Origin: a virus
Length of the DNA stretch: 22,303 bases
Direction: 5' to 3' (one strand)
IMG/VR virus record: IMGVR_UViG_3300022934_000218
Coordinates: 1-22,303 of that record
Each line of letters starts with the position of its first letter. Position 1 is the stretch's first letter. The translations under genes were made by a program, and so were the position numbers. Positions 2,279-22,303 of the stretch are shown here, piece after piece. The notes below the pieces were generated by a model. It worked only from the letters and a program-made list of their open reading frames with translations, was not told the origin of the DNA and searched no databases.

Positions 2279-2306
2279 CCCCCTTGCTTCGGCGAGGGGG
2301 TTTTTT
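2279..2306 (+). terminator. Rho-independent terminator with UUCG tetraloop
   Basis: A 9-bp stem (CCCCCTTGC at 2279-2287 with GCGAGGGGG at 2292-2300, one T-G wobble) closes a TTCG loop and is followed by six T (2301-2306). C(UUCG)G is an unusually stable loop. Only the plus strand has the T tract, so it ends transcription of the helicase module. The stop codon of the converging 2,341-aa gene (TAA on the minus strand, 2305-2307) lies within the T tract. Confidence 0.93.
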
Positions 2307-5300: not shown

Positions 5301-8300
5301 CATCAGGAGTAGACATCATAAGGAGTGCGCCTGCGTCACGAGACTCGGGGGATGGAGAGATAATCGCGTCTATCATCTCGTCTACATCAACCTGTGCCGA
5401 TCCAAGTGGCTTAGTGTCCATACCCATTAGGCGGCGTAGCATGTTAGATACAGTGTTAATGAACCGCTCAAGTGCAGAGAACTGCTCACCTTTCGGGTTG
5501 ATGCCAGCAAGAATCTTCTGGAACTCAGGGTTACTAAACGCTTCTGAAACAAACTCATCTACAGACTGAGAGCCATAGAATGTGCCCAGCTGGTCTTTTA
5601 CTTCGTTGAAGAGTTTCGTCAGCTTCTTAGTAACAGGGTGTGACTTGTTAGCCAGCGTTGCACTTGTGGCAGCGTGCGTCATCTCATGAAGTATTACATG
5701 CGCATTTACACCAGAATCGGCATCGAGTTTGATGGTATTTGTGGCAGGGTCAAACATACCAGCCACAGGGTTACCCGCATCATCAAGTAGAACCTTAACG
5801 ACCTCGATCTTAGTATCACCAGCAACGCCAGAAAGTTTAGCAGCAATCTGCCTTATGCGTGGGCTAGTGCCTGTAACTGACAGGGCTTGTAGCGCGGCTT
5901 TAAGATTACCGTTCTGCAAAGCCGACCGAACCGCCTGATGCACTGGAGTATCTAGGTTTACGACAGAATCGGTGCGCATAAGCAGTTTTAGAAGGTCACC
6001 ACCAAGCAGAGGATCGTCATACTCTGACTCTGCTTCTAGTATAGCGTTATATTCAGCTACGGCATCTTTACGGCGTTCTTTTTCCAGCTTCCGCTCAAAC
6101 GCACGATTTTGACGCTCCAACTGTTCTTGTTTTGCTCTAGCTTCAGCAACGCGGTCACCGCTGGTTAACCGTGCAATCCTAGCGCGTTCTGCGGCTTCTT
6201 TCTTTAGTTGCTGTTCTATAAACTTGTTAGCCTCTGGAGATAAGTTCTCCTTGGCCCACTTTAGTGTACGCTCAGCGTTGGCACGGCCTGTACCACGGAA
6301 GAAGTCAACCGTGTTCTGATCCATATCCTTAGTGGCGCGGAACTGCCTACCTGTTACCATCTCATCAGTGGTCTTGAAGTACGCAGGATCGTTATAAACA
6401 AAGTCGTACACTGCCATGTAAAGTGCGTCTACAGGACGTTGCATCTTACTAAAATATGTCTGCGCCGCCTTGCCTACATCGTCTCTGGCTTTTTGTGCGC
6501 TGTTTAGGAGTTCAAGAATCTTTGCTCTGTCATCTCCAGTAGTAGGATCATCCTTGAATTGCGCTGTATTCGGCGCGGCAAAGTCTATTGTGCCAGCGGC
6601 CTGACGCTCCATATCAGATTCCCAAACAGAATCTAGTTCCTCTTGGATGCGTTCTCTCTTTGTTTTAGGCGCGGGTTTCTTAGCAACAGCCTCACGTTTT
6701 GGCGCGGCCTTCTTAGCAACCGCTTTCTTGGCGGGTGCAGTTACTTCAGCTGCAGTACGTTCCTGCGTAGGTGCTTTCTTGGTAACTTGTTTTGGCGCAG
6801 CCTTCTTAGGGGCAGCCTTTTTAGCTCGCTCAGTAGCCAACCTCTCGAAAACTTGTTGTGGTGTCATAGCACGGCGCTCAATTTCTTCGCGCGTTAGTGC
6901 AGCTGGCTCGCCTCCTTCTCGCACATCAGGGAGTAAAGCACGGCGCTCAGGGCGCTCCAGTCGCTCTGGTCTAGGTGCTGCAACTCTTTCGGCATCTCCT
7001 GTGGGGGCGGCAAATGTTGCCACGCTTGGTCCACTATCCTCAACGCTAGCTCTATCTGGTGTTGGCTCAACGGCGGGAGCAGCACTAGGTCTACCTCGTC
7101 CTCCTCGGGTTGGTGTGAATAGTTCCAGTTGCTCATCGGGTGTACCCTCCAGCATCCTGCTAACATTCAACCGTGTCTGTTGCCCCACCTTTTGATTGTT
7201 CGCAAACTTTGTCAGGTCTTCACGGACAGCAGGATCATTTAAGTCTTTACCCTCTATGCGTTTACGAATGGGTGCACTCTGGGCGATCTGTAAATCATCC
7301 ATAAGTTCTTTTGTTATCTCGCGTGGCTCTGGTGCAATTCCAACGTCACTCGGCTCGGCAGCAGGGCGCCTTTGCCTACCAAATCCCGGCAAAGATGGCT
7401 GTTCAGGGCCACGCTCTCTGCGTTCAGGGATACGAGATTCCATTTCTTCAAGCTGTGTAGCTTCAGGAGCAGACTCAACTACTTCTGGCTCGGGAGCTGT
7501 AGGTGCTTCCGCACGCTGTACATCAATAGCGCGGCGAATTGTACCAAGTTCAGTACCACTAGGTGTAGTGTCAGTTATACCTTCAGCTTCAAGTGCACGG
7601 CTAAACGCACGAGACAGCGTGCCTTCCTGACGAGTAGGGGTCTGCTCGATAACATCCTGTAATATCTTAGTACGCCGTTGCTCTGTTTGACGTGCCCGGG
7701 CACCCTCTTGAGCTGCGCCTATAGTTTCTAGTTCTGATTCAGCTCTAACGCGCTGTTGTTCTGCTCTTTGGGCATCTTCTTGTGCCTGCATTTCTGCGAG
7801 CTGAGTTTCTTCTTCAATAAGTGTAAGCAGGTCACGCTCTTGAGTTGGCGCTCCTTCTTCAGCCACTGCCTCTTCCAGCGTATCCATAAACTGGTCAGGC
7901 CGTCTTAGTTCTTCTGGTCCTAAACGGCGGCGTTCCTGTTCTTGCTCTAATGCAAACAGATCAGGTTGTTCAAACGCGTCTTCGTCACCCCGCTCGGCAG
8001 CACGGAGTGCTTCTCGTTCACGGGCTTCTGCACGGACTCTTTCTTCTTCTGACTGTCTAGTTCTATCCCCCTCAAGACTAAACAACTCAGGTTGCGCGGT
8101 ATCTGTTCTTGCTGCAGATCTCGCCGCATCAGCGTCACGCAAGTCTCGTACAGTATCTGCTATTTGTAGTTCTGTAGGATCTGTAATTCCTCTTGCAGCA
8201 AGAGCTTCTATTGCTACGGGTGTGTATTGTTTTATTTCTTGTTCTTCTAAAAACTCATTAAGAACCCTGTTTTCTAAATCCGTTACGGCAAAATCAGGGG

Positions 8301-9330
8301 CGCCTTCATAATTAAGACCACCTACTTTAGTAGAGTCTACATACGGAGATGCCACGCGAGATGGGAACAACTCCCCTTGTTCTTGACCTTCTTCAAGCAC
8401 AGGTAGGTCTGTGTCGCCTAAACCCCGTGTACGGCCTTTTGTAAATATATCAACAACAGCTTGAAGGATTGCACCTGCACCGCCGCCAGCGATGGCTTCA
8501 TCAATTAAACCAGCATCAAGCAGTTCTTTTTCTGGGTTGTAGCCCATCTCGTTGAGGTTTTGCAGAATACCTGCTGTTACCTCTTGTGCAGCTTCTGCCC
8601 CACCAGATACAGCAGCGCTTCGTATTCTTTGCCCTATTGTTTCAACGACTTCACCGCCGAGTTTTTCAGCAAGCTCGCTGACGCCCGGAATTTTTAAGAC
8701 TCGGCTTAGTGGTAATACTTCAAGAGAACCGATTGCAGCGCCGCGCAATGTAGCAGCGGAACGCTCTTCTTCTGTGGCTCCAGCGGCTCTAGCACGCTCA
8801 CTAGCTTCACCTGCACCGGCTGCAACACCGAGCGCAGCGGCGCCACCAGTACCAACTATGGCAGCTGCAGTAGCAGAAAACGGTGCCGCAAGCGCTAGTG
8901 CGGCGGGTGTAAGTATTGCTCCAAAGGAACCAAGACCAGAAGAAATAAGATATGTTATGGAGTCTCGGTCAGCTGTTTCAAATTTAGCGGCTTCGCCAAG
9001 CTCCTGAATAATCTTACGGGCGGTTAACTCGCTTTCTTCATCGAGAAGTGCAGCGGCACCAACACCCGCAGTCTCAAGCGTACCACCATAACCTTCGACA
9101 AGACCTTTACCAATAGTCTCCCAGATACCTTCTTCGTCTGGCGCTTCTGGTTGAGCAAACAACGCCGCATATTCTGACTGTGCAGTTTCTAGGTCTTGTA
9201 AAGATTTTGCGCGGTCTTCCTCATCAATCTGCTGTTGAACAGCAGCAATGATCTGGGCATCGGTTGCACCCTCTGGACCTTCTACTTGGTAAGTTGCACC
9301 ATCGGGGCCAACAACTTCATAAACAGCCAT
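2305..9330 (-). CDS. Giant polyvalent, probably virion-ejected protein with zincin protease motif
   Basis: A 2,341-residue protein in the position of T7 gp16, the last internal core protein; I infer that it is packaged and ejected into the host. Residues 1-33 form a small module (VYEVVGPDGATYQVEGPEG) often found at the start of phage polyvalent proteins. Residues about 125-295 are rich in Ala/Gly with membrane-helix-like and glycine-zipper segments. Residues about 310-830 are low-complexity, charged and probably disordered, and carry four QxxLF motifs (318, 413, 455, 734). A Lys-Ala-Pro-rich basic tract spans about 836-893. A coiled coil lies at about 1040-1100. HEMTH (1215-1219) with a downstream EFVSEA segment (1259-1264) is a zinc metallopeptidase signature. 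The C-terminal 1,000 residues are helical, include YFPL (about 1570), NISSAMVNLSQ (about 1795) and a hydrophobic hairpin (about 2065-2095). The start ATG follows AGGGGGT at good spacing. Protease activity and ejection are inferred. Confidence 0.85.
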   Translation of the reverse strand: MAVYEVVGPDGATYQVEGPEGATDAQIIAAVQQQIDEEDRAKSLQDLETAQSEYAALFAQPEAPDEEGIWETIGKGLVEGYGGTLETAGVGAAALLDEESELTARKIIQELGEAAKFETADRDSITYLISSGLGSFGAILTPAALALAAPFSATAAAIVGTGGAAALGVAAGAGEASERARAAGATEEERSAATLRGAAIGSLEVLPLSRVLKIPGVSELAEKLGGEVVETIGQRIRSAAVSGGAEAAQEVTAGILQNLNEMGYNPEKELLDAGLIDEAIAGGGAGAILQAVVDIFTKGRTRGLGDTDLPVLEEGQEQGELFPSRVASPYVDSTKVGGLNYEGAPDFAVTDLENRVLNEFLEEQEIKQYTPVAIEALAARGITDPTELQIADTVRDLRDADAARSAARTDTAQPELFSLEGDRTRQSEEERVRAEAREREALRAAERGDEDAFEQPDLFALEQEQERRRLGPEELRRPDQFMDTLEEAVAEEGAPTQERDLLTLIEEETQLAEMQAQEDAQRAEQQRVRAESELETIGAAQEGARARQTEQRRTKILQDVIEQTPTRQEGTLSRAFSRALEAEGITDTTPSGTELGTIRRAIDVQRAEAPTAPEPEVVESAPEATQLEEMESRIPERRERGPEQPSLPGFGRQRRPAAEPSDVGIAPEPREITKELMDDLQIAQSAPIRKRIEGKDLNDPAVREDLTKFANNQKVGQQTRLNVSRMLEGTPDEQLELFTPTRGGRGRPSAAPAVEPTPDRASVEDSGPSVATFAAPTGDAERVAAPRPERLERPERRALLPDVREGGEPAALTREEIERRAMTPQQVFERLATERAKKAAPKKAAPKQVTKKAPTQERTAAEVTAPAKKAVAKKAAPKREAVAKKPAPKTKRERIQEELDSVWESDMERQAAGTIDFAAPNTAQFKDDPTTGDDRAKILELLNSAQKARDDVGKAAQTYFSKMQRPVDALYMAVYDFVYNDPAYFKTTDEMVTGRQFRATKDMDQNTVDFFRGTGRANAERTLKWAKENLSPEANKFIEQQLKKEAAERARIARLTSGDRVAEARAKQEQLERQNRAFERKLEKERRKDAVAEYNAILEAESEYDDPLLGGDLLKLLMRTDSVVNLDTPVHQAVRSALQNGNLKAALQALSVTGTSPRIRQIAAKLSGVAGDTKIEVVKVLLDDAGNPVAGMFDPATNTIKLDADSGVNAHVILHEMTHAATSATLANKSHPVTKKLTKLFNEVKDQLGTFYGSQSVDEFVSEAFSNPEFQKILAGINPKGEQFSALERFINTVSNMLRRLMGMDTKPLGSAQVDVDEMIDAIISPSPESRDAGALLMMSTPDGVKNIMRNMGAIQKTFSKPMTPEARQRFGDLAVDFLASSTDFARRLLLGVLGTKSLGDVSMRNGFGDVGVRLHETIEKQRGDIQESDKEVRAFIDKIFVPWADRNPEAKTALDRLIYSDEYGATIYQVDPAKPRSAYEGRTDDSGNDLAKIWDAQRRDWNRLGANGHRVYNGMRKVYADQYQKLKKVIYGEIDDLMKDNPDAARRLKNEVYAKLFEAGTLDVYFPLLRQGHYKLTYAMKVPKSSREAYVVRMFDTKRERDRVKKEIESDPDVERGSIDTSDGDMQVKDYSNAPPASFVGETLKTLTANRVDPNVQAQIMRLFIDALPETSFAKSLQKRKGTPGYIQDSLVGLKTKAYDIGRQAVRLEYAAKLRMLEDEIIDIKEPKRDRLKLFESLKNRKGVRWAKDQLTASFKDNKEELIGRAKFAREGAANKELERYFKTANQGAFIYTIGFNISSAMVNLSQIPLFAYPYMSAKHGVKDAGAAIGRAAQFSKIVITPTLPKFENGKLRAGQRDQIDDYYDVDDDGNYTVRTDLDLSTKEINQLRRMATMVKTASERGYLGRSYLQDALGLEEGGRQAQGNKAQQYLDAISTASAFAFNAVERFNRQTIMFANYDLILDRLTKDARYFSETQGKYIDTNTLSRTQKEELAANEALYQTEQLNGGMVLETAPRLSQQGILRVALMYKSYGINMYYTMLKSAARMLDATVDPEMRKQAMKELIAVHGSALLFAGVHGVPLYGIFTMIADLILDDDEDDADTIVRKYVKEGWFKGPINYVTGVDVASRIRLTDLVFQENRYNSNPSLEEGIGYYLGGPALSTGKRLLRGLNDLQEGEVERGVENLMPPAFANAYKSTFGRYAREGGAYTRRGDPIYDDITTGELIGQMFGFAPTGYTFEQERNQATKRIDRNVNERRTKLLKKLYKATRMRDYDGRKEAMDEIRKFNDRYRGTGAMISADTVRKSLRTHARTSAQMHNGITISPAMRRALIESRNEWNQ

Positions 9331-9339: not shown

Positions 9340-11193
9340 CTATGGTTTGCGCGTGACTGTAAACCCACTTGTCCCAGACCCTGCGGCAGAATCACGAATC
9401 CTAGATACAATATCGCCTCTCCATTTAATAAGGTCATTGGTAGCAGCTTTAATAGTAGCATTTTTCTCTTTGTTAAGAGCGTTAATCATATCCTGAGTCG
9501 TTCTGCCTTCTGGTAGCGGCACGAGACCTGCCTCAATATCAGCTATACGATCAGCATAGGCAGCATCAGTTTTGATAGTAATATCTGCCAAGATTTTTTC
9601 GATGTCTGCAAGAGTAGCCTGCATGTAACGCCGATCCGTGATGCCTGCCATAATCTGGTTGTGACTGTGCTGGATGCTGTTTTTCTGCTGAGCCGTTTCA
9701 TTTTGCATATTTGCAATATCAACTTTAACTGCAGTATCAACATTTTGCGCCAGTATCTTCACTTCGTTTGCACGCTCATCGCTGAGGCGCTTCTGCTCTG
9801 CTACATCAACCTTAAGCGCAGCATCGGCTTCCCTACGGCGGCGTTCAGCCTCTTCTCTAGTAAGTCTGCCAAGCCCTTCAGCACCGGCAATAATCTCACG
9901 GCTTGCACGATCAGCGGCTTTAGAACCTTCACCGTAGGCACTCTGCCGAATCTGCTGTGATTTATTGATCTGGTCTTCAAGCATCTTCTGACGCTCAGCC
10001 ATAAGGTTATACTGTGCGGTTTCTTGCCGTCCACGAGCTACATCAGCTTCAGCGGAACCGCCAGCCAAAACAGACCCAATACCGCTACGGTTTGCAGTAC
10101 CGCGCAGAAACGCTGATAGACGCTCACGGCGCATTTTATCTGGGTCAAACCGTGCTGTTTCCATATCTTTACGTTCTTGAATTAGAGCATCTAGCTTAGC
10201 ACGCTCATCTGGTGAGTAGCCAAAATATCCCATTGCTTCTTCGCGTGCACTTTTGGCTGCAGCAGTTGAGTCTTTTGCAGCTAATCCTTTGTATAGGTCA
10301 AGAAGCCCTTTCTCAGCTTCAATGCCGCTGTAATCTACTTTGTATTTATCACCACTAAGCGTAGGCACTTGAGTTTTTACTTGGCCTAGATCAAGTGAGT
10401 AATCGCCCTTGTTTACATTTGCACCGCCAGCAGGCATTTCTGGTTGTTGTCCTGTAGTTTGCCCAGCAGGTGGTTGTTGTCCTGTAGTTTGCCCAGCAGG
10501 TGGTTGTTGTCCTGTAGTTTGCCCAGCAGGTGGTTGTTGTCCTGTAGTTTGCTGATTTATTTGCGCTGACACAGGTACACTTTTTATTCCGCCTTGGTCT
10601 CCAATAACATCAAGTGCGCTAGTCTCCATACCTTGTGGAATTGTTCCCATAACCCCACGAGGACGAGCGCTGCTGACTGTACCAACAGGCACTTGTGTGC
10701 CGCTTTCAATGATAGCTTGAATACGCTCTTTCTTCTCATCAACGGACAAACTTGCATCGTCTTGAATAGCCTTAATTCTTTTGGCTTTACTATCCAATGT
10801 ATCTCCACCAGTGGCAAAAGCAACGATGCCGCCACCTGCCATACGCGCCATATTCGGTGCAGGTTGTCCAGCAATACCTCTTTGGGCTACTTGTGCTAAA
10901 TTCTTTTGCTGTTGCGCTTGACGCTGCTGCAGCAGTTTACCTGTTTGTGCAGCTAGTTCGTTCTTGGTCAGCCCAAGCACTTCTTCTTCGCGTTGTTCAG
11001 CGATAGTCTTTGGCGAGTTAGCCATCTTCATCTGCACATCACGGGCAGCAGATTCTTTTTCCGACTTAAGTTTTTGCAACGCAAGCAAATCAATCAGCTG
11101 TTGGTTTTGCTGATAACGCGCCATTAACTTATTCGGATCAGACCGATAAGCATCTACTTTTTGTTGGATTTGTTGGTCAATGCCCATCGCCAT
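9340..11193 (-). CDS. Coiled-coil internal virion protein (T7 gp15-slot candidate)
   Basis: A 617-residue hydrophilic, mostly helical protein, probably an internal or ejected core component by position between the 285-aa and 2,341-aa genes. Residues about 1-110 are Gln/Lys/Glu-rich helix. A glycine motif, ARMAGGGIVAFATGG (116-130), interrupts it and resembles GGIV-type motifs that I recall in many marine phage core proteins. Residues about 214-253 are a Pro/Gln/Thr/Gly linker made of ten-residue repeats, encoded by a perfect 30-bp DNA repeat. From about 330 to 600 the chain is charged heptad-like helix, rich in Ala, Glu and Arg. The start ATG is preceded by GGAG at 7 bases, and that Shine-Dalgarno site overlaps the end of the 285-aa gene. 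A second ATG two codons downstream is possible. I recognise no enzymatic motif. Confidence 0.8.
   Translation of the reverse strand: MAMGIDQQIQQKVDAYRSDPNKLMARYQQNQQLIDLLALQKLKSEKESAARDVQMKMANSPKTIAEQREEEVLGLTKNELAAQTGKLLQQRQAQQQKNLAQVAQRGIAGQPAPNMARMAGGGIVAFATGGDTLDSKAKRIKAIQDDASLSVDEKKERIQAIIESGTQVPVGTVSSARPRGVMGTIPQGMETSALDVIGDQGGIKSVPVSAQINQQTTGQQPPAGQTTGQQPPAGQTTGQQPPAGQTTGQQPEMPAGGANVNKGDYSLDLGQVKTQVPTLSGDKYKVDYSGIEAEKGLLDLYKGLAAKDSTAAAKSAREEAMGYFGYSPDERAKLDALIQERKDMETARFDPDKMRRERLSAFLRGTANRSGIGSVLAGGSAEADVARGRQETAQYNLMAERQKMLEDQINKSQQIRQSAYGEGSKAADRASREIIAGAEGLGRLTREEAERRRREADAALKVDVAEQKRLSDERANEVKILAQNVDTAVKVDIANMQNETAQQKNSIQHSHNQIMAGITDRRYMQATLADIEKILADITIKTDAAYADRIADIEAGLVPLPEGRTTQDMINALNKEKNATIKAATNDLIKWRGDIVSRIRDSAAGSGTSGFTVTRKP
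10441..10552. repeat. Perfect 30-bp tandem repeat, 3.7 copies
   Basis: Three full copies (10441-10470, 10471-10500, 10501-10530) and a 22-base partial copy (10531-10552) are identical at every base, including third codon positions. The unit encodes ten residues (PPAGQTTGQQ) in the linker of the 617-aa protein. Identity at silent sites points to recent duplication by slippage or recombination. There are no spacers, so it is not a CRISPR array. Confidence 0.97.
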
Positions 11194-12061: not shown

Positions 12062-12931
12062 TCACGCGGGCATAGTTCTTTGTGGGTTAATCTGCTTGCC
12101 CTGTTTCGTGGTGCCAGTACGAGCTTTACGCACTCGGTCCATCATTTCATAAAGTTGTTCAGCACCAGCGTTTGAGTTGCCGTTACCCAAGCCACTAACA
12201 ACATCAGCAGCAACAACAAACTCACCACCTGAAAGTGCAGCGGGGTCTTGCCCGTCAATCATACTAGGAATAGTGTCTGCCATACCATCGGCAGTACTAT
12301 TTAGATAGCGAGAAGGAGCCATAGCAGCCAAACCACCGGGAGCATACCGATTTACTTGTCCTCCCATAGCCATACCTGCAGGGGGCGCAGGGGGCATAGC
12401 AGGGGGCATACGCCGTTCTTGTCTGGCTGGGTTATCAATATTAGCCCGCATCAAAGCTGCTGCTTCTTGTGCTGCAGCTGCTCTAGCTGCATCGCCACCG
12501 CTTGGTGCAGTATAACGAACATCAGTAAAATACCTACGCCCACCACTGCCGGGGCGGCGATTAGGATCATAAGAAGAAGGAATCATTGTTGGAGGCAGTG
12601 AAGCCTGCCCAGCTTGTGCAGCGGGTTGCGCAGGAGCTTGTATTTCTGCCATAGGCACTTGCTGGCGTGTCGCTAGGTAGCTAGGAATACCACCCTGATA
12701 CCCAGTAGGTCGCTGCTCGTTACCACCAAAAAGACCTAGTGCACTGGCTACTCCGCCACCAACACCAGCAATCTTACCCCAGTCAACACCACCTTCTGAT
12801 GTAGTAAAGAACCCACCAATATCTTCTAGTAGTCCTGTGCTGCCGTCATCAGAAAAGTCAAAATCAGTAATGTAGTCCCAAGCACTGGAGCCTGCGTTAA
12901 TTATGCTATCAAGGAAGCTGTCGTCTGCCAT
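12062..12931 (-). CDS. Marine-phage structural protein with conserved C-terminal domain
   Basis: A 289-residue protein, probably a virion or internal core component. Residues 1-70 contain aromatic and acidic helices followed by a Gly-rich hydrophobic stretch (GKIAGVGGGVASALGLFGG, 52-70) that could touch a membrane. The middle is Pro/Ala/Gln-rich, with RRPGSGGRRYFTDVRY at about 125-140, and ends in a proline run. A GG motif follows (MAMGGQVNRYAPGGLAAM, 187-204). The last 75 residues form the best conserved part as I remember the family: DGMADTIPSMIDG, GEFVVAADVVSGLGNG, and LYEMMDRVRKARTG. This C-terminal block recurs in unannotated proteins of many marine phages. The start overlaps the stop of the 1,799-aa gene as TAATG, with GGAG 7 bases upstream, so the two are translationally coupled. 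Confidence 0.8.
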   Translation of the reverse strand: MADDSFLDSIINAGSSAWDYITDFDFSDDGSTGLLEDIGGFFTTSEGGVDWGKIAGVGGGVASALGLFGGNEQRPTGYQGGIPSYLATRQQVPMAEIQAPAQPAAQAGQASLPPTMIPSSYDPNRRPGSGGRRYFTDVRYTAPSGGDAARAAAAQEAAALMRANIDNPARQERRMPPAMPPAPPAGMAMGGQVNRYAPGGLAAMAPSRYLNSTADGMADTIPSMIDGQDPAALSGGEFVVAADVVSGLGNGNSNAGAEQLYEMMDRVRKARTGTTKQGKQINPQRTMPA

Positions 12932-15900
12932 TACTTATCTCCAAGAATCCTTAATATTTCATCCGTAGCATCCACAACTCCGCCTTCTGCATATGGACTA
13001 GGGAACATAGCTGCTTGCTGCGGCGTAGCAAAGATGCTGCTAAAGTCGTAAAGATAACCAATTCTGGCTGGGTCTGGAGTTTTTACATCCACTTGTTGCC
13101 CGTATATATCGCCAGATTGCATTAGCATATTTTGCAGTTGCCTTATGTTACCTACTTTTTGCGCCTTTGCAGCTTCGTCTTCTACTTGTTGTAACAGATT
13201 TTGCTGCAAATCGGTAATTAAATTTTGTGTTTGCTGCTGTTGCGCGTACAAACCTGTCGCTGGCTGTGCAAACACTGATTCTGGCGCAAAGGTAACGTCT
13301 TGACCCTGTATAGCATTTTCTAACAGAGTTTGATCGTTTATGTCAACAATACCATCCCCTGTAACATCATATGCTAGCTGTTCTTCTGTAAATGTAAACT
13401 GGCTAGGATCAGCAAGCGCTTCCTGTTGTGCAATTAAGTCGGCAACGAAATCTATATCAACCTGCGTAACGTCTTTTGCTGGTTTACCTACTAACTCCGC
13501 AATAGCATCAATATCGGCTCCAAGAGTCTCTTCAACTCCTGTAATCTGCTCGCCGAGAGTTTCTTCAACTCCTGTAATCTGCTCGCCAAGTTCTGTCTGG
13601 ACATCAGAAAGTTCACCACTAAGGTCAGATATTTCACCAGTTAACACATTATATTGTGCACCGGGTAACGCTTCTTGGAGTTTTTCCGCTAACAGTTCTT
13701 GGTTGTACTGCCCCACAAGTGCTTCAATATCTTCAGGTCGTACATTAGGTAGCCCTGCCTCAGTAAACGCATCTATGACTTCCTGCTCTGTAACCATGAG
13801 CGGATCAACATAAGAACTAATAGCTTCTTGCTGTGCATTTTCAGCAACTTGCCCAGTAAATTGTTGGATTTCTTCGTCAGTAGGTGTGTAGCCAAGAGAA
13901 GTAAGAAACTCTTTTGCTTCATCTGCATCGGTGTAAAGTGGGTCTACAAATTCAGCAATGGCTGCTTGTTGTTCTTCTTCACTAGTTGCACCGACAAATT
14001 GATTGATTTGGTCTTCGCTTGGTGTAAACCCTAGTGCTTGGAAAAACTCTGTCGCTTCTTGCTTTGTCGTAGCTAGCGGATCAAAGGCGGCTTGTGCAGC
14101 TTCCAACGCAGCGGCTTCGTCTTGTTGTCCAAGATAAGCTGCGGCAAGTGTCTCGTCTAAAGTCAGCCCTTCAATGTCAGCGATAGCTTGGAGTTCTTCC
14201 ATTGTGACCATACGAGGGTCAACATATTTTTCGATTAGCCCTCTTTGAGTGGCTTCGTCTACTTGCCCAATAAATTGCTGAACTTCATCATCTGTTGGTT
14301 GGTAGCCAAGCCGACCAAAGAAATTACGAGCTTCTATCTCAGTAACAGTTTTCGGCCCTACATAGTTGGCAATAGCCTGTCTTGTGCCTTCTTCAATGTC
14401 AGTGCCGCGCCGACCTGTAGCCAAATTGCGTTGGATTTCTTCGTCAGTAGGTGTGTAACCAAGATCGAGAAACATCTGCCGAATCTCGTCTTCAGTAACT
14501 GTGCGTTCATCTACAAACTGGTCAATAGCTGCCTGTGCATCCGCCTCAGACATTCCAACATATTGATTTATCTCATCATTTGAAAAACCAAAACCAGACG
14601 GTGCAAACTCTTTCACCTCGGAAGCCATAGTATATAGCGGGTCATACTCTTCCCGAACATCCGCTATGCCCTGCGCTTCATCAGTTTGCCCCACATATTG
14701 CTGTGCTTGTTCTGGTGTAAGCGTTATACCTTCCTGTGCAGCTGCAGCTATAACTTCATCTACATCGAAATACCGTGGGTCTACATAACTATCAATCGCT
14801 GTATTGAGGTCTGCATCAGGATTAGCCCCTACAAACTGATTCAGTTCAGATGCTTGGAATTGATACGGAACTGTACCGCTAGCATAGTTAGCCGCAGCAT
14901 CAAAGGCTTCGGCTGTGCTTGTGTAGCCTTGATCGTAAATACTGTTGAGTAGGTTAGTCTGTATAGTTGGGTCAGTAATTCCAAGGTCGGCAAACTGACT
15001 AGCAGCAGCCTGTGCCCCTTCGGCGCTATTCGCAGCACTCTCGTAAATGTTGCGAACTTTTGGATTAAACATAACGAGTGCGTTAGTCAGCACATCGCCT
15101 GTAGCCACGCCGCTATAGATAGACCCAGAAGTACCACCACCGGATATAGCACCGAGAACAGAGTTACTTACTACATTACCGACAACATCGCGCGTTGGGT
15201 CTAGTTGGTACAGCTGTGATTCAACAAACGCTTGTGGCAGTCCTTCTTCGACAGTTTCCTGTCCAGCCTCTTTAGCCATAATATCAAAGGCTTCTGAGAA
15301 ACTTTTACCTTTCTTGCCGCTGAATATAGCCTCTTCAAACTTGTTACCGCCGATGCCCATGGTGCCGATAGTGGTCAACGCAGCAATAGTACCAGCGTTT
15401 ATGGCTATATCTTTTGCGTAGGTTTCAGCTTCCGCTACGCTCATTCCTGATTTTATGGCTGTAGCATAGGCATCTTGGTACGCACCGTTTGCTGTACCCC
15501 CAAAAGATTCGGCTACGTCAAGTGTAGCAGCAGTGCTAAGTGCGGTCTTACGTCCTATGTCTTTGGCGAATTGTTCTCCACCTTCCATAAAGGCTCTGCG
15601 TGCAATATTGCCTGTACCGCCACTAGCAATAAATACTGGGACTTCCTGTAAAACTTCTTTTGCTATGTATTCCGAAGCAAAAACTCCGGGGTTATCCATA
15701 GCCGCACCGCCGATTGCCTTTACAGAGTTCCAAGCTTTCGCCCATGTAGACAGCGGAGAGCCGTCAGCATTTGTTTTTAGCGTGCCATCTTCGTTTAGAT
15801 TAGCATTAGCAATAGTACTCTGAATGTCTGCGGCAGCTGCTTTGTACTCATCAGTCTTTAGATCACCCGCCATTGTAAGCAAGTTTTTAGCTGTCTTGCC

Positions 15901-18330
15901 TAACGGAGTTGACTCTGGGTTGATGCCTGCAAGCAACACAAGCGTGTTCATGCTCTGCAGGAGTTCGCCAGTAGCATCGGTAGTAACCCCAGCAATATTG
16001 CGGAACGTATCGCTGTTAACGATGTCCTGCACCTGCTCGGTTTCCATAATGTAGTTACTTAGGTTTGTAGCAAAGTCGTAGATTGGCTTGCCTACGCTTG
16101 CATCAAGCAGAACACCGGCTTCTTTACTAAAGTTCGATACTTGCGCCAAAAATGCGGATGGGTCTTGTTCTTGAAGTCTATCTAAAGATGCCCCGCGTAT
16201 AGTTATACGCATAGGGCCGCCCTCAGTAGCCCCTTCATTATCTAAAACATTAAAACCACCTACGCGAACATACCAACTACTATTGTCGCCGGGATACGAT
16301 TGGAACTCATAGGTTTCATTTGATAGTACTTCCCCTGTGATAGGGTCTGTAAGTTTCCTTGTAAAAGTACTTCCCGGCCCGTCACCAGTGCGATCCTCTT
16401 GCACAAGTAAAGTTCGCCCAAATTCATCTACATGCTGTAGCGTGGGCACGCTAAATACAATGTTATCCCACTCAACCAGCCCAGTATCTTTATTGTACGA
16501 AAGCGTTGCTCTGCCGTTAATAATATCTTCTTCAGTAACGCCATCAGCTCGTTTAATGTCCGCGTTACGCTGTTTACTGCCACTTTGAATTTGGTTTAGT
16601 AGGTCAGTTTTTTGTTCAGAGTTAAGGTTATCAATGCTGTCTACGCCGTAGTATTCTTTGACTAAATCGTCAAAAAATGTAGGGTCATTCTTGTTTTCAT
16701 CTATTAGCGTTTTAGCATCGTTAATAAGTAGATTTTGTAGGTCTGCGCCTGCATCCTCGAAGCCCATCTTTTTGAGGTCTTCAAGTGGACGGTTAAAATA
16801 TTGCTGTATGCTTTTTAGTTGTGACTCAGAAAGACTCGTAGGCACTATGCCTGCACTTTCTAACGCGCTATTAACCAGATCAGTTTTTGTTCTACCAAGT
16901 TCAGCATTATATTGCTCTTGGTTCACAGGTAAGCCCTGCTGCCTTCCATAAGTCAAATAGTGGTAGTAGGCATCTTCATCGTCATCGAGGTTATATAGCT
17001 GTTTATATTCGTCCTCTTTGAACTCACCTTCACCACCAGTAAGCGCTTCTGTAAAGGCTTTGTCTATTTGACGATAAGCAGGCTTAAGGTCTTCTTCGAG
17101 CCGATCTGCACTCGAAGTCATATTCTTTACTAGTTTATCGTATTCAGCTTTAAGTGTAGGTATGCGTGCTTCTGCAGCATCGGCAGCAGCTTTGTACTTG
17201 TCCAACTGCGGCTTATATTTTTCAGTATAGTCTTTATCCAGCTGAGTTGCGTAATCGTTGTACGCCTTTGTAGCTGCATTAAGCGCGTCTGCGTTAGCTT
17301 GATTAGGAGTTCCTTGGAATATCTGAAGTGCGCGATCATATTCGGTTTTAAGCCTATCACGCTCATCAAACCGAGGACGCAATTCATCCGCAACTTCATT
17401 ATATTTGGTAGCAGCATCGTTGAACGCTTTTGTGTTAGCGTCTACTTCATCAGCTTTGGCTTCTAGTTTCTGGTAGTCGCCAGATAGTTTGTCGATGGTG
17501 TTATTAACTGTGTCGCCGACTTTAGAATCATCAAGCCATTCTTTAAACGATGTAGCGCCATAAGCAGCAACAGAACTCATAACAGCCGCAGGCACATTAC
17601 CGCCTGTAAATGCTGCCGCAGTAGTCCGTTGTATACCCGCTGTTAACGCAGCTAGTTGCCCATCAGTAAGAGACTTGTCTGCATCTAAGTATTTCTGCAC
17701 CGTCTCGGTAGTAATTTGAGACTGCAGAACAGCGTTAGCCATAAGTTCTGGTGTTATCTCTTGGTCAGTAAGAGCCGCTGTAAGCCCCGCAGCGATGACA
17801 TTTTTAGCTGCGTCCGGTAGGTCGTTGTAAGCCCCACCTGAATTTTCTTCGATATATCCAAGCCCAGCGCTGACACCTGCCTGCACACCGCCTTTGAGCG
17901 CGGCCTCTAGTGGGTCTTGCCCCAAAACAACAGCAGCAGATGCGCTGCCTGCGGCGTTGCCTAGAATTTGTCCAGCAACTTCAGAACCTGTTTCCTGTGC
18001 TACATAAGAACCAGCAGTGCTTCCCACCTTAGCGCCAATTTTAGAGGCAACATAGGACTTAGCGGTAGCCTCAAGAATATCGCCTACATCGCCGCCTTTA
18101 ACCGCTACACTAGCACCATCAATAAGAGGTATAGCCCAAGCGTTACCAGTAGCTACAGCGGCTATTTTAGCTATTGTGGTTACTGGATCATCTAACGCAG
18201 CGTCAATAACGCTGCTAACCGTGTCTACAACGGGGTCAATAATCTTATCGACAACAAAGTCGGCAACGTCCTCAACAACATCAATAACGTCCTCAACAAC
18301 ATCTTCGATAATTTCAATAACTGCTGCCAA
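12931..18330 (-). CDS. 1,799-aa repeat protein with membrane-type segments and a dockerin-like calcium loop
   Basis: A giant probable virion or ejected protein of unknown function. It starts at TTG (18330) with GAGGG seven bases upstream; no ATG exists nearby in frame. Residues 1-45 form an acidic amphipathic segment (repeated DVVEDV). Gly/Ala-rich zipper-like stretches follow. Residues about 290-440 are a charged coiled coil. At about 439-475 a segment with YYHYLTYGRQQG resembles the HYxxYGxxEG motif of some secreted and surface proteins. Residues about 975-1070 contain membrane-helix-like sequence and the QETVEEGL...GGGTSG module. Residues 1186-1557 are eight repeats of about 46 residues. 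Two LGEQITGVEET repeats and a single EF-hand-like loop (DVTGDGIVDIND, 1655-1666) come next. The C-terminus has YAEGGVVDATDEILRIL. It sits between the 154-aa and 289-aa genes with one base of spacing or overlap. Confidence 0.85.
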   Translation of the reverse strand: MAAVIEIIEDVVEDVIDVVEDVADFVVDKIIDPVVDTVSSVIDAALDDPVTTIAKIAAVATGNAWAIPLIDGASVAVKGGDVGDILEATAKSYVASKIGAKVGSTAGSYVAQETGSEVAGQILGNAAGSASAAVVLGQDPLEAALKGGVQAGVSAGLGYIEENSGGAYNDLPDAAKNVIAAGLTAALTDQEITPELMANAVLQSQITTETVQKYLDADKSLTDGQLAALTAGIQRTTAAAFTGGNVPAAVMSSVAAYGATSFKEWLDDSKVGDTVNNTIDKLSGDYQKLEAKADEVDANTKAFNDAATKYNEVADELRPRFDERDRLKTEYDRALQIFQGTPNQANADALNAATKAYNDYATQLDKDYTEKYKPQLDKYKAAADAAEARIPTLKAEYDKLVKNMTSSADRLEEDLKPAYRQIDKAFTEALTGGEGEFKEDEYKQLYNLDDDEDAYYHYLTYGRQQGLPVNQEQYNAELGRTKTDLVNSALESAGIVPTSLSESQLKSIQQYFNRPLEDLKKMGFEDAGADLQNLLINDAKTLIDENKNDPTFFDDLVKEYYGVDSIDNLNSEQKTDLLNQIQSGSKQRNADIKRADGVTEEDIINGRATLSYNKDTGLVEWDNIVFSVPTLQHVDEFGRTLLVQEDRTGDGPGSTFTRKLTDPITGEVLSNETYEFQSYPGDNSSWYVRVGGFNVLDNEGATEGGPMRITIRGASLDRLQEQDPSAFLAQVSNFSKEAGVLLDASVGKPIYDFATNLSNYIMETEQVQDIVNSDTFRNIAGVTTDATGELLQSMNTLVLLAGINPESTPLGKTAKNLLTMAGDLKTDEYKAAAADIQSTIANANLNEDGTLKTNADGSPLSTWAKAWNSVKAIGGAAMDNPGVFASEYIAKEVLQEVPVFIASGGTGNIARRAFMEGGEQFAKDIGRKTALSTAATLDVAESFGGTANGAYQDAYATAIKSGMSVAEAETYAKDIAINAGTIAALTTIGTMGIGGNKFEEAIFSGKKGKSFSEAFDIMAKEAGQETVEEGLPQAFVESQLYQLDPTRDVVGNVVSNSVLGAISGGGTSGSIYSGVATGDVLTNALVMFNPKVRNIYESAANSAEGAQAAASQFADLGITDPTIQTNLLNSIYDQGYTSTAEAFDAAANYASGTVPYQFQASELNQFVGANPDADLNTAIDSYVDPRYFDVDEVIAAAAQEGITLTPEQAQQYVGQTDEAQGIADVREEYDPLYTMASEVKEFAPSGFGFSNDEINQYVGMSEADAQAAIDQFVDERTVTEDEIRQMFLDLGYTPTDEEIQRNLATGRRGTDIEEGTRQAIANYVGPKTVTEIEARNFFGRLGYQPTDDEVQQFIGQVDEATQRGLIEKYVDPRMVTMEELQAIADIEGLTLDETLAAAYLGQQDEAAALEAAQAAFDPLATTKQEATEFFQALGFTPSEDQINQFVGATSEEEQQAAIAEFVDPLYTDADEAKEFLTSLGYTPTDEEIQQFTGQVAENAQQEAISSYVDPLMVTEQEVIDAFTEAGLPNVRPEDIEALVGQYNQELLAEKLQEALPGAQYNVLTGEISDLSGELSDVQTELGEQITGVEETLGEQITGVEETLGADIDAIAELVGKPAKDVTQVDIDFVADLIAQQEALADPSQFTFTEEQLAYDVTGDGIVDINDQTLLENAIQGQDVTFAPESVFAQPATGLYAQQQQTQNLITDLQQNLLQQVEDEAAKAQKVGNIRQLQNMLMQSGDIYGQQVDVKTPDPARIGYLYDFSSIFATPQQAAMFPSPYAEGGVVDATDEILRILGDK
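13524..13589. repeat. 33-bp direct repeat, two copies
   Basis: Two adjacent 33-base units (13524-13556 and 13557-13589) differ at two positions. They encode a duplicated eleven-residue heptad-like segment (LGEQITGVEET) in a coiled-coil part of the 1,799-aa protein. This looks like a recent local duplication. Confidence 0.92.
13660..14775 (-). repeat. Eight protein repeats of about 46 residues
   Basis: Residues 1186-1557 of the 1,799-aa protein. Each unit has the pattern VTxxEAxxFFxxLGYxPTDEEIQQFxGQ, then an Ala/Gln-rich helix, then YVDP. Units vary from about 44 to 51 residues and have diverged in DNA sequence, unlike the recent 30-bp repeat in the 617-aa gene. Three helices per unit are likely. 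A degenerate extra unit may precede them, ending in SYVDP. Confidence 0.9.
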
Positions 18331-18331: not shown

Positions 18332-18796
18332 TTATAGCCCTCGCTCCAACGGCTCTTTTCCTAACCTCATGTAAACAACATGTTTACCTGACGCAGTGCG
18401 CCCCACTGCTATTTTTGTATCCGAACCCATAGTACGTCTATGAAACGCACGAAACGCATTTAAAAATATATCCCCAGAAAATTGAGTCGTATAATGTGTA
18501 ATTCCTTTGTTCTGCAGGTAAGTAAAATACTTAAACCCGTTCTTAACAAAATTTCTGCCGGTGTCGATATTAAACGCACGCCCAACCATCTTGTTTTTGT
18601 CTTTTCCTGTACCTCTGTGTGCAAGAAACACTGTATTACCTATCTGCACTAGGTCGGTATTATCCTTAGTTGTTTCATCAGCTATACTAGCCAACACAAC
18701 AGCAGGGGGGTATTCGGTTTCGTTAAACTCTTCAACGGACATAGCTATTACTTCAGGCCCGCTAAGTTGTTCTTGGTTGCTATCTACTAATGGCAT
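18332..18796 (-). CDS. Small protein in the T7 gp13 slot; possibly GNAT-like
   Basis: A 154-residue protein between the KAS gene and the 1,799-aa gene. By position after the tail genes and before the giant core proteins, it matches T7 gp13 (138 aa). Its layout is also similar: beta strands (GNTVFLAHRG, KMVGRAFNID), an amphipathic helix (FVKNGFKYFTYLQNKGI), then strand-helix-strand (HYTTQFSG, FLNAFRAFHRRTMGS, KHVVYMRLG). This order recalls the second half of a GNAT acyltransferase fold, but the coenzyme A-binding Q/RxxGxG/A motif is not clear. The first 20 residues look like an extension. The start ATG has GGAGG at 5 bases and abuts the KAS stop (TAA, 18797-18799). I am confident of the gene and unsure of its function. 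Confidence 0.7.
   Translation of the reverse strand: MPLVDSNQEQLSGPEVIAMSVEEFNETEYPPAVVLASIADETTKDNTDLVQIGNTVFLAHRGTGKDKNKMVGRAFNIDTGRNFVKNGFKYFTYLQNKGITHYTTQFSGDIFLNAFRAFHRRTMGSDTKIAVGRTASGKHVVYMRLGKEPLERGL
18338..18342 (-). promoter_or_regulatory. Shine-Dalgarno site fixing a TTG start
   Basis: GAGGG lies seven bases upstream of the TTG at 18330-18328 and overlaps the last codons of the 154-aa gene. No ATG or GTG with a comparable site is near, so this supports TTG as the start of the 1,799-aa protein. Confidence 0.7.
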
Positions 18797-19909
18797 TTAG
18801 ACCTCCGTGGAAAACAGCGCAGCTGAGTACACATTACCCATACCTGCAGCGAGGCTAAGAAAAACGCCATCAAAAGCGGGAACGTCTTCCGAAAGAAAGA
18901 CAGAATCGTCAGCTGTTCTGTTGGGAATTTTGGGGATTACCCCAGATTTAAGATCATCCAGCAACAGCCCAGTCTCCAATAACCCGCTTGCACTAAGTGT
19001 ATGCCCTATGCGTGGCTTATATGAGGTCGCTACGAACTCATCAAGAGAGCGCAATAAAGCAGATTTTTCCGCAGCATTATTGACTGGCGTGCCAGTTCCA
19101 TGCGTTTTGACTAACCTTACTCTATTTCTATGTAGTTTGGCTACAAATAATGCACCTTCGATTGCTTTTGAGTAGCCTTCGCCGTCATCACGCTGCCCCA
19201 ACGGGTTAGTATTATCTTCCGCTGAGGTATACGCGCCCATAAATCTAGCCAATGGTGCACGCATATTAGGGTGTTCTTTTTCAAAAATAGTCAGCGCTGC
19301 TCCTTGTCCTACATGAAACCCGTGGTTTACGTCATCAAACGCTGAAGGCTTGCGCTTATCTTCGTCTTCCAATAATAGACACGCTTTTGCATCGCCAAAA
19401 AACTCAAGGGATGGTATACAAACAGAATCTTCACCACTTAATACAATCACACGATCAAATCCGTAATGAAACATTAAGTTCTGCATGTCCATAAGAACTT
19501 TTAAACTGGATGCGCACGCGCTAGCATCTGTAGATACATGGTCGTGGACATGAAACATAGTAGCAATACGCCCCGCATAGATATTAGTAAGCGTAATGAA
19601 CGGTAGTTTTGTTTTATAATGCAGCTCGGCTTCAGGGTTTTTATCGTAACGCCCGCTAGTCCCCATCCAACCCTGACTTCCAGCAGCAAGCATAAACGCC
19701 GTTTTGCCCTTCACAGGGTTTGCTTTAACATAGTTAATCGCTTCTTCCGTTATCACTTTGTTAAACATGTTATGTGGTGGGTAAGACATACCCGTTTTAG
19801 CTTTACGGAATGTGTCGGGAAGAATATGCACGCGCTGAGGGAACGCTATATCCTCGTATACGGTAGTTTCGGTAGTGCAGGCAGTTGCGGAGTAGGTCAT
19901 GTAAATCAT
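18797..19909 (-). CDS. Beta-ketoacyl-ACP synthase (KAS I/II type)
   Basis: This enzyme should catalyse decarboxylative condensation of an acyl thioester with malonyl-ACP in the cytoplasm. The 370-residue chain has the nucleophile Cys132 in STDASACASSL, His270 in KTHGTGTP, and Lys298 and His303 in YKPRIGHTLSASG. The C-to-H spacing (138) and H-to-H spacing (33) are close to E. coli FabF (C163, H303, H340; 140 and 37), and Lys lies five residues before the second His in both. HGFHVGQGAALTIFE (196-210) aligns with the family's DGFVLGDGA region. It is shorter than FabF (about 410): the N-terminus lacks roughly 30 residues and the final GFGGTN loop is changed to GMGNVY. An intact Cys argues against a chain-length-factor role. 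The ATG overlaps the ACP stop as ATGA, with GGAGG (19917-19921) seven bases upstream. The acyl substrate and product are unknown. Confidence 0.92.
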   Translation of the reverse strand: MIYMTYSATACTTETTVYEDIAFPQRVHILPDTFRKAKTGMSYPPHNMFNKVITEEAINYVKANPVKGKTAFMLAAGSQGWMGTSGRYDKNPEAELHYKTKLPFITLTNIYAGRIATMFHVHDHVSTDASACASSLKVLMDMQNLMFHYGFDRVIVLSGEDSVCIPSLEFFGDAKACLLLEDEDKRKPSAFDDVNHGFHVGQGAALTIFEKEHPNMRAPLARFMGAYTSAEDNTNPLGQRDDGEGYSKAIEGALFVAKLHRNRVRLVKTHGTGTPVNNAAEKSALLRSLDEFVATSYKPRIGHTLSASGLLETGLLLDDLKSGVIPKIPNRTADDSVFLSEDVPAFDGVFLSLAAGMGNVYSAALFSTEV

Positions 19910-20193: not shown

Positions 20194-20256
20194 GTGTCGC
20201 TCCTGTTCAAAGGGTATCTCTAATATACAAAACACCCTAAGATACGCAAGCGTACA
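20194..20256. other. 63-base intergenic gap in the late operon
   Basis: This is the only gap above ten bases between minus-strand genes. It holds the ACP Shine-Dalgarno site and the candidate promoter. I see no stable hairpin with a T tract that would end transcription between the jelly-roll gene and the ACP gene. Confidence 0.8.
20222..20249 (-). promoter_or_regulatory. Candidate promoter upstream of the ACP-KAS pair
   Basis: On the minus strand TTGCGT (20249-20244) is followed after 16 bases by TATATT (20227-20222), about 30 bases upstream of the ACP start. The -10 box matches the sigma-70 consensus at five of six positions, the -35 box at only three. It lies in the 63-base gap (20194-20256), the longest in this operon. 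A phage-specific promoter cannot be excluded. Confidence 0.3.
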
Positions 20257-20880
20257 CTATAAGTTGCTAACAAATGATACAGCGACTACAGAAGATGGTA
20301 AACCCGGATGAGGTGCTGTAGCAGCCTCTGTGTGTAAGTTAAGTTGTGTGTCGCTAGTAGCCCAGTACATCTCAATATATTGGCCCGCTGTTAGGTCAAT
20401 CGAGAAGTTCCAATGCACTGCTATATCATCGTTACCTTTAATGGTGTTTTTCTGCCCGCCATATGGTTGGTCAGTGCCGTTTTTGTTAATCCACGTCCAT
20501 AATGTAGCGGCTGATGAGTTGTTGTGCTCCAACTGCAAGGTCACTTGAAAGTTATAAACGCCATCATCAGTGGCAGTAATGCGGGTGTTGTCTACCCCAC
20601 CAATCGAAATACCGTTACCAATATAGGTATTCTCAAACTCAACGGGGTAGCCCGTGTTAGCAAGAGCGGCTGTTTGGTCAACGGTGCTATAAAAGAGACC
20701 CCGTGGCATATACAGAAACTTGCCACCATCATCAGTGCTAAGCACTGTGTTAATAGTGTTGACTAACCTATTGAAAAACAACCGAAGCACGTTGCTATTC
20801 TGGTCCATATACGGACGGTTATATTCCTCCGTGGCAAGCGGAAGTGCCGGTGGTTCAGTCTTTTCAATCTCGTTAGCCAT
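20257..20880 (-). CDS. C1q/TNF-like jelly-roll virion protein
   Basis: A 207-residue protein, probably a trimeric fibre, decoration or tail-tip component. Residues 1-60 form a Pro-rich segment and a helix (LRLFFNRLVNTINTVLS), which could anchor it to the virion. From about residue 58 the sequence is beta-rich with a C1q/TNF pattern: PRGLFYSTVDQTA, GYPVEFEN, a central DDGVYNFQVTLQLEH strand, a WINKNG turn, LTAGQYIEMYWA, and a terminal VVAVSFV strand. Related sequences occur beside tail genes of many marine podoviruses, as I recall them. Its start overlaps the preceding stop as TAATG, and the Shine-Dalgarno site is weak, so translation is probably coupled to the upstream tail gene. Receptor binding is possible but not shown. 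Confidence 0.75.
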   Translation of the reverse strand: MANEIEKTEPPALPLATEEYNRPYMDQNSNVLRLFFNRLVNTINTVLSTDDGGKFLYMPRGLFYSTVDQTAALANTGYPVEFENTYIGNGISIGGVDNTRITATDDGVYNFQVTLQLEHNNSSAATLWTWINKNGTDQPYGGQKNTIKGNDDIAVHWNFSIDLTAGQYIEMYWATSDTQLNLHTEAATAPHPGLPSSVVAVSFVSNL

Positions 20881-22303
20881 TACCGTCTACCGTCAGGCCG
20901 CATATCAATACGAGGTGTTCCTAGCTGCCAAGACACTCCCTCTGCAGTAGACTCTATTTTTACTGACATCTGCCTGCCCCGCACTCGGACGTTAATCTGG
21001 TCAGTATACTCTTCAATAGGCACTGTAGCTGTACGCGTTACAGCAGCGCTATTAGAACCACCTTGGGAAGCCGGAGAGTTATACCCAGAGCCAGAACTTG
21101 CTAGTGGCAGTAGAGTCATAGTAGCCGCAGGAGACGCAGCGGTAGAACCGTTGAATGTCATGTCAGGTAGTAAGCGCCAGATAAACGCAAACTTGTGCCC
21201 GTCATCAAGATCAAACTGCGCAGAAGAAATACTTGCAGCTATTGGGGCAGTCGTTCCGGTTTCGTTGTCGTCAAGTCCATCTTCGTGACTTACCAAATTA
21301 TAACTATATGTAGCAGCTAACGGATTATCTTGCAGTCCAGAATCAAGCCACGCGGTGCGCGCCAACGTGCCATAGTACCAAATATCTTCTAGATAGTTGT
21401 AAATTACATAACGATCTATGTTGTCAGAGTTTGTAGAGCAGTAGAACCACCACACCTCATGGAAAGATTCGTTTGTCCCAGCAAACACTTGATCGTATTG
21501 CAAAGTGTTAAAGTCGTTAAAAACAAACCGGCGTAGATCACAACGCAGTGGTTGGGTGCGACCATCATATTTGTAAAATTTATCTTTGCCCATCCAAAAC
21601 GCCGTTCCTGAAGCAAATGCAACGGAGTTCATAGATGCGATAGATATGTTATCGCCGACTAACTGCGCGCCCCACACTGCGGGAGCACCTTGATATTGTA
21701 GAGAATACAACGCTGCATCGGACCACACCAAAATTTCCTGACGAGCCTGTTTAGCTGCTATAATCTCTGTACCACGCGAAAGTCTTAGAGAGCCTGCTTG
21801 GTTTGTGGACGCAGGTGTCCAGTTAGTAGCATCTTCCTGATCTGACCATCGCACAAGCATAGGGTCTACAGTAGCAGTGCCAATATCATTTGTACCGAAA
21901 CAGAACACAAAACGGTTGATGTCAGATACAAGAATTATATTTTGCTGTGTAGGAACGCCTGACGCACCGCCAAGAGAAGAAAGATACACTCCACGAGTGG
22001 ATACTCCACCAGTAGCATCCCAATAGAAAATATTGCCCCCACGAGGCCCAAATACTAAATCTTCACCGAAGTTTGCTTGACTCCAGAGACGAATATCTTC
22101 TGCAGAAGTACCACCAGTACCCCAAGTTCCCGCACCCCATGTGCCACCTCCCCAACCTGTAAGTGGGACAGCGTAAGGCTCACCAGTACGGATTTGATAC
22201 GCACCGACTACGGAAGCGCCACCATTGCCTGTATCGGATGCGTTAGCTAATACAGTCGCTCCAGTGACATTATCCTTGGCCTCAACTTCATAAGTATCGG
22301 CGT
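20880..22303 (-). CDS. Large tail protein, T7 gp12/P22 gp10-slot candidate (5' end outside window)
   Basis: The frame is open to the right edge, so about 474 codons of a longer gene are present. A GTG at 21989 could be mistaken for the start, but the frame continues upstream with convincing protein sequence: a Trp/Gly-rich motif (GWGGGTWGAGTWG) and SQANFGEDLVFGPRGG. Further on are SDINRFVFCFGTNDIG, RWSDQEDATNWTP, SLRLSRGTEIIAAKQARQE, FWMGKDKFYKYDG and VIYNYLEDIWYYGT, a beta-rich pattern with repeated blade-like units that suggests a propeller or tail-tube nozzle. I recall this family in the tail module of many marine podoviruses. The position before the C1q-like and core genes fits T7 gp12 (tail tubular protein B). 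The homology to gp12 or P22 gp10 is inferred, not demonstrated. Confidence 0.75.
   Translation of the reverse strand, partial: ADTYEVEAKDNVTGATVLANASDTGNGGASVVGAYQIRTGEPYAVPLTGWGGGTWGAGTWGTGGTSAEDIRLWSQANFGEDLVFGPRGGNIFYWDATGGVSTRGVYLSSLGGASGVPTQQNIILVSDINRFVFCFGTNDIGTATVDPMLVRWSDQEDATNWTPASTNQAGSLRLSRGTEIIAAKQARQEILVWSDAALYSLQYQGAPAVWGAQLVGDNISIASMNSVAFASGTAFWMGKDKFYKYDGRTQPLRCDLRRFVFNDFNTLQYDQVFAGTNESFHEVWWFYCSTNSDNIDRYVIYNYLEDIWYYGTLARTAWLDSGLQDNPLAATYSYNLVSHEDGLDDNETGTTAPIAASISSAQFDLDDGHKFAFIWRLLPDMTFNGSTAASPAATMTLLPLASSGSGYNSPASQGGSNSAAVTRTATVPIEEYTDQINVRVRGRQMSVKIESTAEGVSWQLGTPRIDMRPDGRR

Follow-up and report, generated by a model that had tools for sequence, protein, structure and literature searches.

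Introduction

What might a very large phage protein do with a C-terminal arm that consists of helical repeats and ends in a single calcium-type loop? The question is raised by the gene of a 1799-amino-acid protein in the window analysed here, which is a whole virus record of 22303 bases with its block of structural genes on the minus strand (Table 1). On balance, we favour the reading that the gene product belongs to the virion or to an ejection module and combines a variable helical rod with a dockerin-like end domain for a single calcium ion; this domain would be a static point of attachment or assembly.

Table 1 Features of the 1799-amino-acid protein, its gene and the neighbouring genes (positions are those of the window)
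Feature	Position	Strand	Basis
Gene of the 1799-aa protein	12931..18330	-	ORF listing; relatives in 80 loci
N-terminal part, residues 1-1139	14914..18330	-	AlphaFold model
Nine helical units of ~46 residues, residues 1140-1556	13663..14913	-	Unit profiles, lag self-score, model
Long helix/predicted coiled coil, residues ~1544-1614, overlapping the end of the last unit	13489..13701	-	Model helix 435-505
33-base tandem repeat, two copies, inside the coiled coil	13523..13587	-	Sequence
Dockerin-like domain (predicted fold), residues 1615-1682 (~68 residues)	13285..13488	-	Profiles, Pfam, model
First, ligand-less half GKPAKDVTQVDIDFVADLIAQQEA, residues 1615-1638	13417..13488	-	Alignment; model helix 514-529
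Calcium-type loop DVTGDGIVDIND, residues 1655-1666	13333..13368	-	Sequence and conservation
Helix overlapping and following the end of the loop, residues 1664-1674	13309..13341	-	Model helix 555-565
154-aa conserved neighbour, unknown function	18332..18796	-	Homologue in 71/80 loci
Stabilisation-protein-like virion gene, cut by the end of the record	20880..22301	-	phrog_3287
Downstream genes of 289, 285, 617 and 2341 aa	2305..12931	-	Conserved order

Materials and methods

The C-terminal 650 residues were used as a query and yielded two relatives; the three-sequence alignment then led to 80 loci. These loci in viral contigs were fetched with two N-terminal peptide patterns, which makes their selection independent of the loop. 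A search with loop peptides is biased and was left out of the census. The AlphaFold run on residues 1110-1799 was based on 30 sequences and no templates; residue numbers are obtained by adding 1109 to the numbers of this model.

Features of the protein and its relatives

The start codon is TTG, and residue 1 aligned with the ATG start of two relatives (L002 and L003). Cysteine is absent from the protein. Its sole PHROG match at E <= 0.1 was phrog_25320 (E 0.065), a family of unknown function. AlphaFold predicted helices, a long coiled coil (residues ~270-430) and a beta-containing stretch (~600-715) for residues 1-1139, mostly at low confidence, and the mean pLDDT over residues 1-1150 was 60. 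Comparison of this low-confidence N-terminal model with the PDB gave no match at E <= 0.001. The C-terminal part is strongly acidic, with 85 Asp and Glu against 19 Lys and Arg residues in the repeats and 14 against 2 in the domain.

When cultured phages were searched by tblastn, no relative was found with either the window protein or that of L117, and the domain, searched at E values up to 10, returned nothing but four records at E 3 or worse. Five cultured or named phages provided 33 annotated neighbour proteins, against which the profiles of domain and units gave nothing above chance; among these phages, only MW202545.1 has the N-terminus in common with the window protein. Phage MinM2 has a similarly placed gene that bears the annotation 'calcium-binding protein'; the loop pattern was not found in it. 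Scans of cellular genome contigs for prophage or host copies found no relatives.

Genomic neighbourhood

The PHROG match of the stabilisation-like gene is phrog_3287 (E 3.7e-58; virion structural protein, head and packaging), and a homologue of the gene lies upstream of the 1799-aa gene in 79 of the 80 loci. Among cultured phages, matches to the gene were obtained in HTVC023P, CRP-901/902, DSL-LC04, MinM2 and Pseudomonas phages, among others. The initial annotation had seen the protein against the background of T7 core proteins. This frame is not supported and was dropped, as the structural gene next to it belongs with phrog_3287 and has cultured relatives that are not T7-like. No T7 core or ejection protein was present among the matches listed by VIA-align for the model, which does not speak against such an identity.

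At the sequence level, the order 289 > 285 > 617 > 2341 aa of the downstream genes is kept wherever a locus reaches far enough. The 2341-aa protein matches DarB-like and PLxRFG proteins. P22-type phages keep their ejection proteins downstream of the stabilisation gene, and the place of the 1799-aa gene may, by analogy of position, be called ejection-cassette-like.

Further observations were made on the neighbouring genes. The 2341-aa protein (2305-9330, minus strand) contains the stretch HEMTH, which we take to be a zinc-protease-like HExxH motif. A perfect 30-base tandem repeat of 3.7 copies in the gene of the 617-aa protein (10441-10552, minus strand) encodes a decapeptide rich in Q, P, G and T. 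The 207-aa protein encoded next to the stabilisation gene (20257-20880, minus strand) has weak minor tail protein matches (phrog_737, E 2e-5) and a homologue in 44 of the 80 loci; as a guess, it could be a knob of the tail-needle type. The structural block also harbours, at 18797-20235 on the minus strand, a beta-ketoacyl synthase of 370 aa (Ketoacyl-synt_C, E 3e-16) and, beside it, an ORF of 109 aa resembling acyl carrier proteins (ACP), with a GLDSLD motif and a weak match to phrog_5934 (E 0.066). Homologues of the synthase and the ACP-like ORF are found in 29 and 26 of the 80 loci, respectively, invariably in the interval from the stabilisation gene to the 1799-aa gene. PF02801 was detected in 7 of 22 related records, and MW202545.1 has a synthase in the same position that is 54% identical.

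Helical units and coiled coil

The mean BLOSUM62 self-score of residues 1140-1556 at a lag of 46 is 0.22, compared to a best value of -0.20 among 500 composition shuffles at all tested lags. Eight repeats, each ending in YVDP, had been annotated initially. The period of about 46 residues is real, but nine units are present, the first of which (1140-1185) precedes the start assigned at that time; this count is partly circular, because the profile was built from those very units. A profile iterated over the relatives likewise gives nine units in the window. The exact ending YVDP occurs only at 1182, 1369 and 1507, whereas FVDP (1461), YDP, AFDP, VDER and YVGP are found elsewhere. In the AlphaFold model, a unit comprises three helices of approximately 15, 10 and 7 residues, with pLDDT values mostly between 85 and 93. 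The number of units ranges from 2 to 18 among the complete reading frames in which units were found, these counts being lower bounds, as divergent units are missed by the profile.

No Pfam family was consistently matched by the units. Single units gave weak matches to UPF0154, DUF2789, DUF7370, PUB and others, which look like generic helix-turn-helix likeness; even the best of these families did not recur consistently, being matched by no more than 6 of 55 units. A comparison of the unit profile with PDB sequences yielded a designed TPR at the top and centrin in the list, all matches being weak. The idea that the units themselves are calcium EF-hands was also discarded, since they lack calcium loops and have no profile link to the domain. 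The EF-loop pattern was found only once in the whole protein, at residue 1655, the 12-residue calcium loop is absent from the units, and comparison of the unit and domain profiles gave no match (probability 1.2%).

The coiled-coil repeats noticed earlier include an 11-residue unit, GEQITGVEETL, which is duplicated almost exactly at the DNA level. Given the helical repeats and the coiled coil in the AlphaFold model, the suggested rod is plausible.

Conservation of the calcium-type loop

The initial annotation had placed the loop DVTGDGIVDIND correctly, both in coordinates and in residue numbers. A loose EF-loop regular expression matches 1.24% of shuffled versions of the 1799-aa protein. Because the pattern is that frequent in shuffles, relatives were examined, and it is the conservation in relatives, not the pattern itself, that makes the loop significant.

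The 3' end of the gene is present in 36 of the 80 loci, corresponding to 30 clusters at 90% identity, and the domain was found in 30 of these 36 loci (25 of the 30 clusters). In the window and the 25 cluster representatives, the ligands expected to vary in homologues if the loop were irrelevant turned out to be conserved: Asp occupies positions 1, 5 and 12 of the loop in 26/26 sequences, domain matches having been found with a loop-containing profile that a strongly changed loop could escape. Position 3 is Thr in 19 and Asn in 7 of the 26 sequences, 23 sequences have Asp and 3 have Thr at position 9, and the Tyr before the loop is invariant, whereas positions 2, 4, 6, 7, 8, 10 and 11 are variable. 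Both GAT and GAC are used for Asp at positions 1, 5 and 12, which indicates that the protein and not the DNA is under conservation. Relatives with conserved ligands have overall identities down to 24-27% in the aligned region.

Thirteen C-termini that had been missed by the first loop pattern were checked by eye. Seven carry a variant loop (L059, L071, L074, L085, L109, L115 and L117), all of which were later recovered by the profile, and six are domain-less (L051, L068, L086, L095, L097 and L102). Three of the latter, L086, L095 and L097, are short frames of 664, 676 and 635 residues, respectively, in which the units are absent too. In L051, IIGRPAT appears by eye to be directly joined to ATGLFA, as if the domain had been removed whole rather than decayed. 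With its absence from 6 of 36 loci, the domain is not essential everywhere.

A wider domain search yielded 80 loci with 80 domain frames, which overlap with the earlier set at the contig level and do not enter the conservation counts. The domain always ends a long or cut frame, and at least one 46-residue unit is detectable in 61 of the 80 frames. The remainder are cut or have units missed by the profile; all zero-unit frames are open at their 5' end.

Dockerin-like domain

The domain profile, built from 47 sequences, has two halves (GKPAxxVTxxDIDFVxDLIAQ and YDVTGDGxVDINDQxLL). D1625 is invariant in 47/47 domain sequences. The first half keeps this residue and a helix (1623-1638), and its ligands are missing at positions 1, 3 and 5. 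Profile comparison of the two halves gave no match (probability 0.2%), and the sequence therefore does not show the internal duplication that dockerins typically have. The description of 'only one loop, unlike dockerins' applies in that a single loop is calcium-competent, but according to the Pfam match and the model it is preceded by a degenerate, ligand-less first half.

At E values up to 0.1, Pfam Dockerin_1 is matched by 41 of the 47 domain sequences, the best with an E value of 3.5e-9. The copy of the window aligns with profile positions 17-56 of 57 (E 0.0017) and, with 19.0 bits alone and 18.3 bits in the genome search, falls below the curated cut-off of 22.9 bits. This cut-off was passed in 6 of 22 related records; at a loose threshold, Dockerin_1 matches were also obtained in 5 of 14 control genomes. 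Comparison of the domain profile with PDB sequences gave mostly dockerins as top matches (8x39, 2e-5; 4dh2, 3.4e-4; 2y3n, 1.5e-3). The loop agrees with the dockerin pattern D1, D/N/S/T3, D5, D/N/S/T9, D12 in 26/26 sequences and is followed by a helix in the model.

The model of residues 1110-1799 has a mean pLDDT of 80, with domain blocks mostly between 81 and 90 and the last two falling from 83 to 58. It contains the loop and the helix of an EF-hand at high confidence. VIA-align placed four dockerins (8x39_A, 4uyq_B, 5nrm_B and 5lxv_B) among ten chains with Z >= 5. They reach Z values of 5.6-6.5 over 56-59 residues and cover both halves (model residues 509-581); unrelated chains come to 6.0 and 5.9, and values of Z < 8 may mean little according to the tool itself. 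Foldseek returned nothing at E <= 0.001 for this model, the best matches being troponin C and calmodulin (E values from 0.013 upwards). In the viral structure library, too, no match reached E <= 0.001, and DUF4214 proteins and tape measures are among the weak rows. The initially proposed dockerin-type EF-hand is thus supported by the conserved ligands together with a model that aligns to dockerins. We use 'dockerin-like' for a predicted fold suggested by sequence profile and model together, as either alone is insufficient.

Proposed role and alternative explanations

The gene product is probably a large protein of the virion or the ejection module in a family of uncultivated tailed phages. The last third of this protein would form an elongated arm, composed of three-helix units that vary in number, a coiled coil and the dockerin-like domain of ~68 residues. 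This end domain would consist of two 'loop plus helix' halves, with calcium ligands only in the second (1655-1666). The conserved ligands speak for the binding of a calcium ion and for its importance; most likely, one ion would keep the end domain folded. The folded domain may then be a static point at which the long acidic arm is attached to, or assembled with, another part of the virion. The units, the domain, the conserved ligands and the gene order are seen in the sequences themselves, the fold is a prediction, and calcium binding, a place in the virion and docking are inferences.

This static role has to be weighed against a calcium switch, in which the folded end domain would hold the arm at the calcium level outside and loss of the ion in the low-calcium interior of the host would free or unfold the arm as the genome is delivered. 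The ejection-cassette-like gene position and a single conserved calcium-type loop where a long arm ends speak for such a switch, as does the strongly acidic C-terminal part, although acidity alone fits other roles too; we consider the switch unlikely. A shade less likely again is a tape-measure-like or fibre-like protein, in which the number of units would determine a length or the arm would contact the surface of the host. The range from 2 to 18 units would suit this role, and the correspondingly placed gene of DSL-LC04 carries the annotation 'tail tape measure protein', although its protein gives no match to the window protein, PHROGs of that kind were matched over the last ~50 residues only, and the podovirus-like gene set appears to lack a long tail to measure. 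The LPS-binding N-terminal domain of the surface layer protein RsaA is among the best non-dockerin rows of the repeats (Z 6.0, 3.5 A, 79 residues), but this row does not stand out from unrelated helical matches.

A true dockerin whose partner is a cohesin, carried by a second phage protein or by a host protein, would be in line with the dockerin-type sequence and predicted fold. Textbook dockerins, however, hold two calcium ions, whereas the first half of the domain is devoid of ligands, and Cohesin (PF00963) was found in 0 of 22 related records including the window, which may be fragments; this reading is quite improbable. Least probable is a loop that arose by chance or decayed and binds no metal. 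The frequency of the loose pattern in shuffled copies and the many proteins of a large window would allow for it, but it is disfavoured by ligands that are kept with synonymous codon change in such distant relatives.

Significance

A bolder form of the switch is rather doubtful: the phage family would have taken up a dockerin-like domain to lock, in a calcium-dependent manner, the end of an arm that varies in length and belongs to an ejected virion protein, with the domain folded in water rich in calcium and released in the host, where calcium is scarce. If true, genome delivery would be coupled to calcium. Many reports describe phage infections that depend on calcium, but this dependence has seldom been traced to one domain. 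Here, conservation pins down a ligand set in a protein of a putative genome-delivery gene block, in a family without a cultured member in the collections searched, and its four acidic or polar residues are amenable to mutation. Dockerin-like modules would also extend to a phage structural protein. Dockerin-like domains and giant phage proteins are known separately; their combination, kept across a family, was not found in the open-licence literature searched. No description of a dockerin-like module in a phage structural protein was found there, the closest case being gene 40 of VvAW1, for which Blastp similarity to dockerin type I is reported (PMC3558961).

Comparison with known systems

Type I dockerins (PF00404), such as the double-dockerin module of Clo1313_0689 (PDB 8x39), have the same loop D-x-[TN]-x-D-x-x-[VI]-[DT]-x-x-D followed by a helix. 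They are also alike in having two halves, a length of ~60-70 residues, no long helix before the loop and a similar predicted fold. Unlike them, the domain of the window lacks ligands in its first half, is terminal on a giant phage protein, has no glycoside hydrolase or cellulosome context and no cohesin found, and stays below the Pfam cut-off. The ~46-residue units share the hairpin helix - LG(Y) - PT - helix with the EF-hand pairs of calmodulin, troponin C and centrin, but they contain no calcium loop and the matches are weak (best Foldseek E value 0.013).

In the P22-type ejection cassette, gp7, gp20 and gp16 follow gp10. The 1799-aa gene is likewise located downstream of a stabilisation gene and before a giant protein of the DarB/PLxRFG type, and the matching cassette of the cultured phage DSL-LC04 ends in an annotated 'DNA transfer protein'. 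In contrast to P22, there is no PHROG sequence match to the gp7, gp20 or gp16 families.

The closest named record, the Manatee Spring phage MW202545.1, encodes in this place proteins that are extraordinarily cysteine-rich (L123:21488-24649), with runs such as CCSCCCSCCC. Its 639-aa ORF is cysteine-rich and has neither the units nor the calcium domain, in contrast to the protein of the window. Only the first ~170 residues of this ORF are homologous to the 1799-aa protein (E 1.3e-20), it occupies the same position after the ketosynthase and a 146-aa gene, and its C-terminus resembles, as judged by eye, the separate 289-aa protein of the window.
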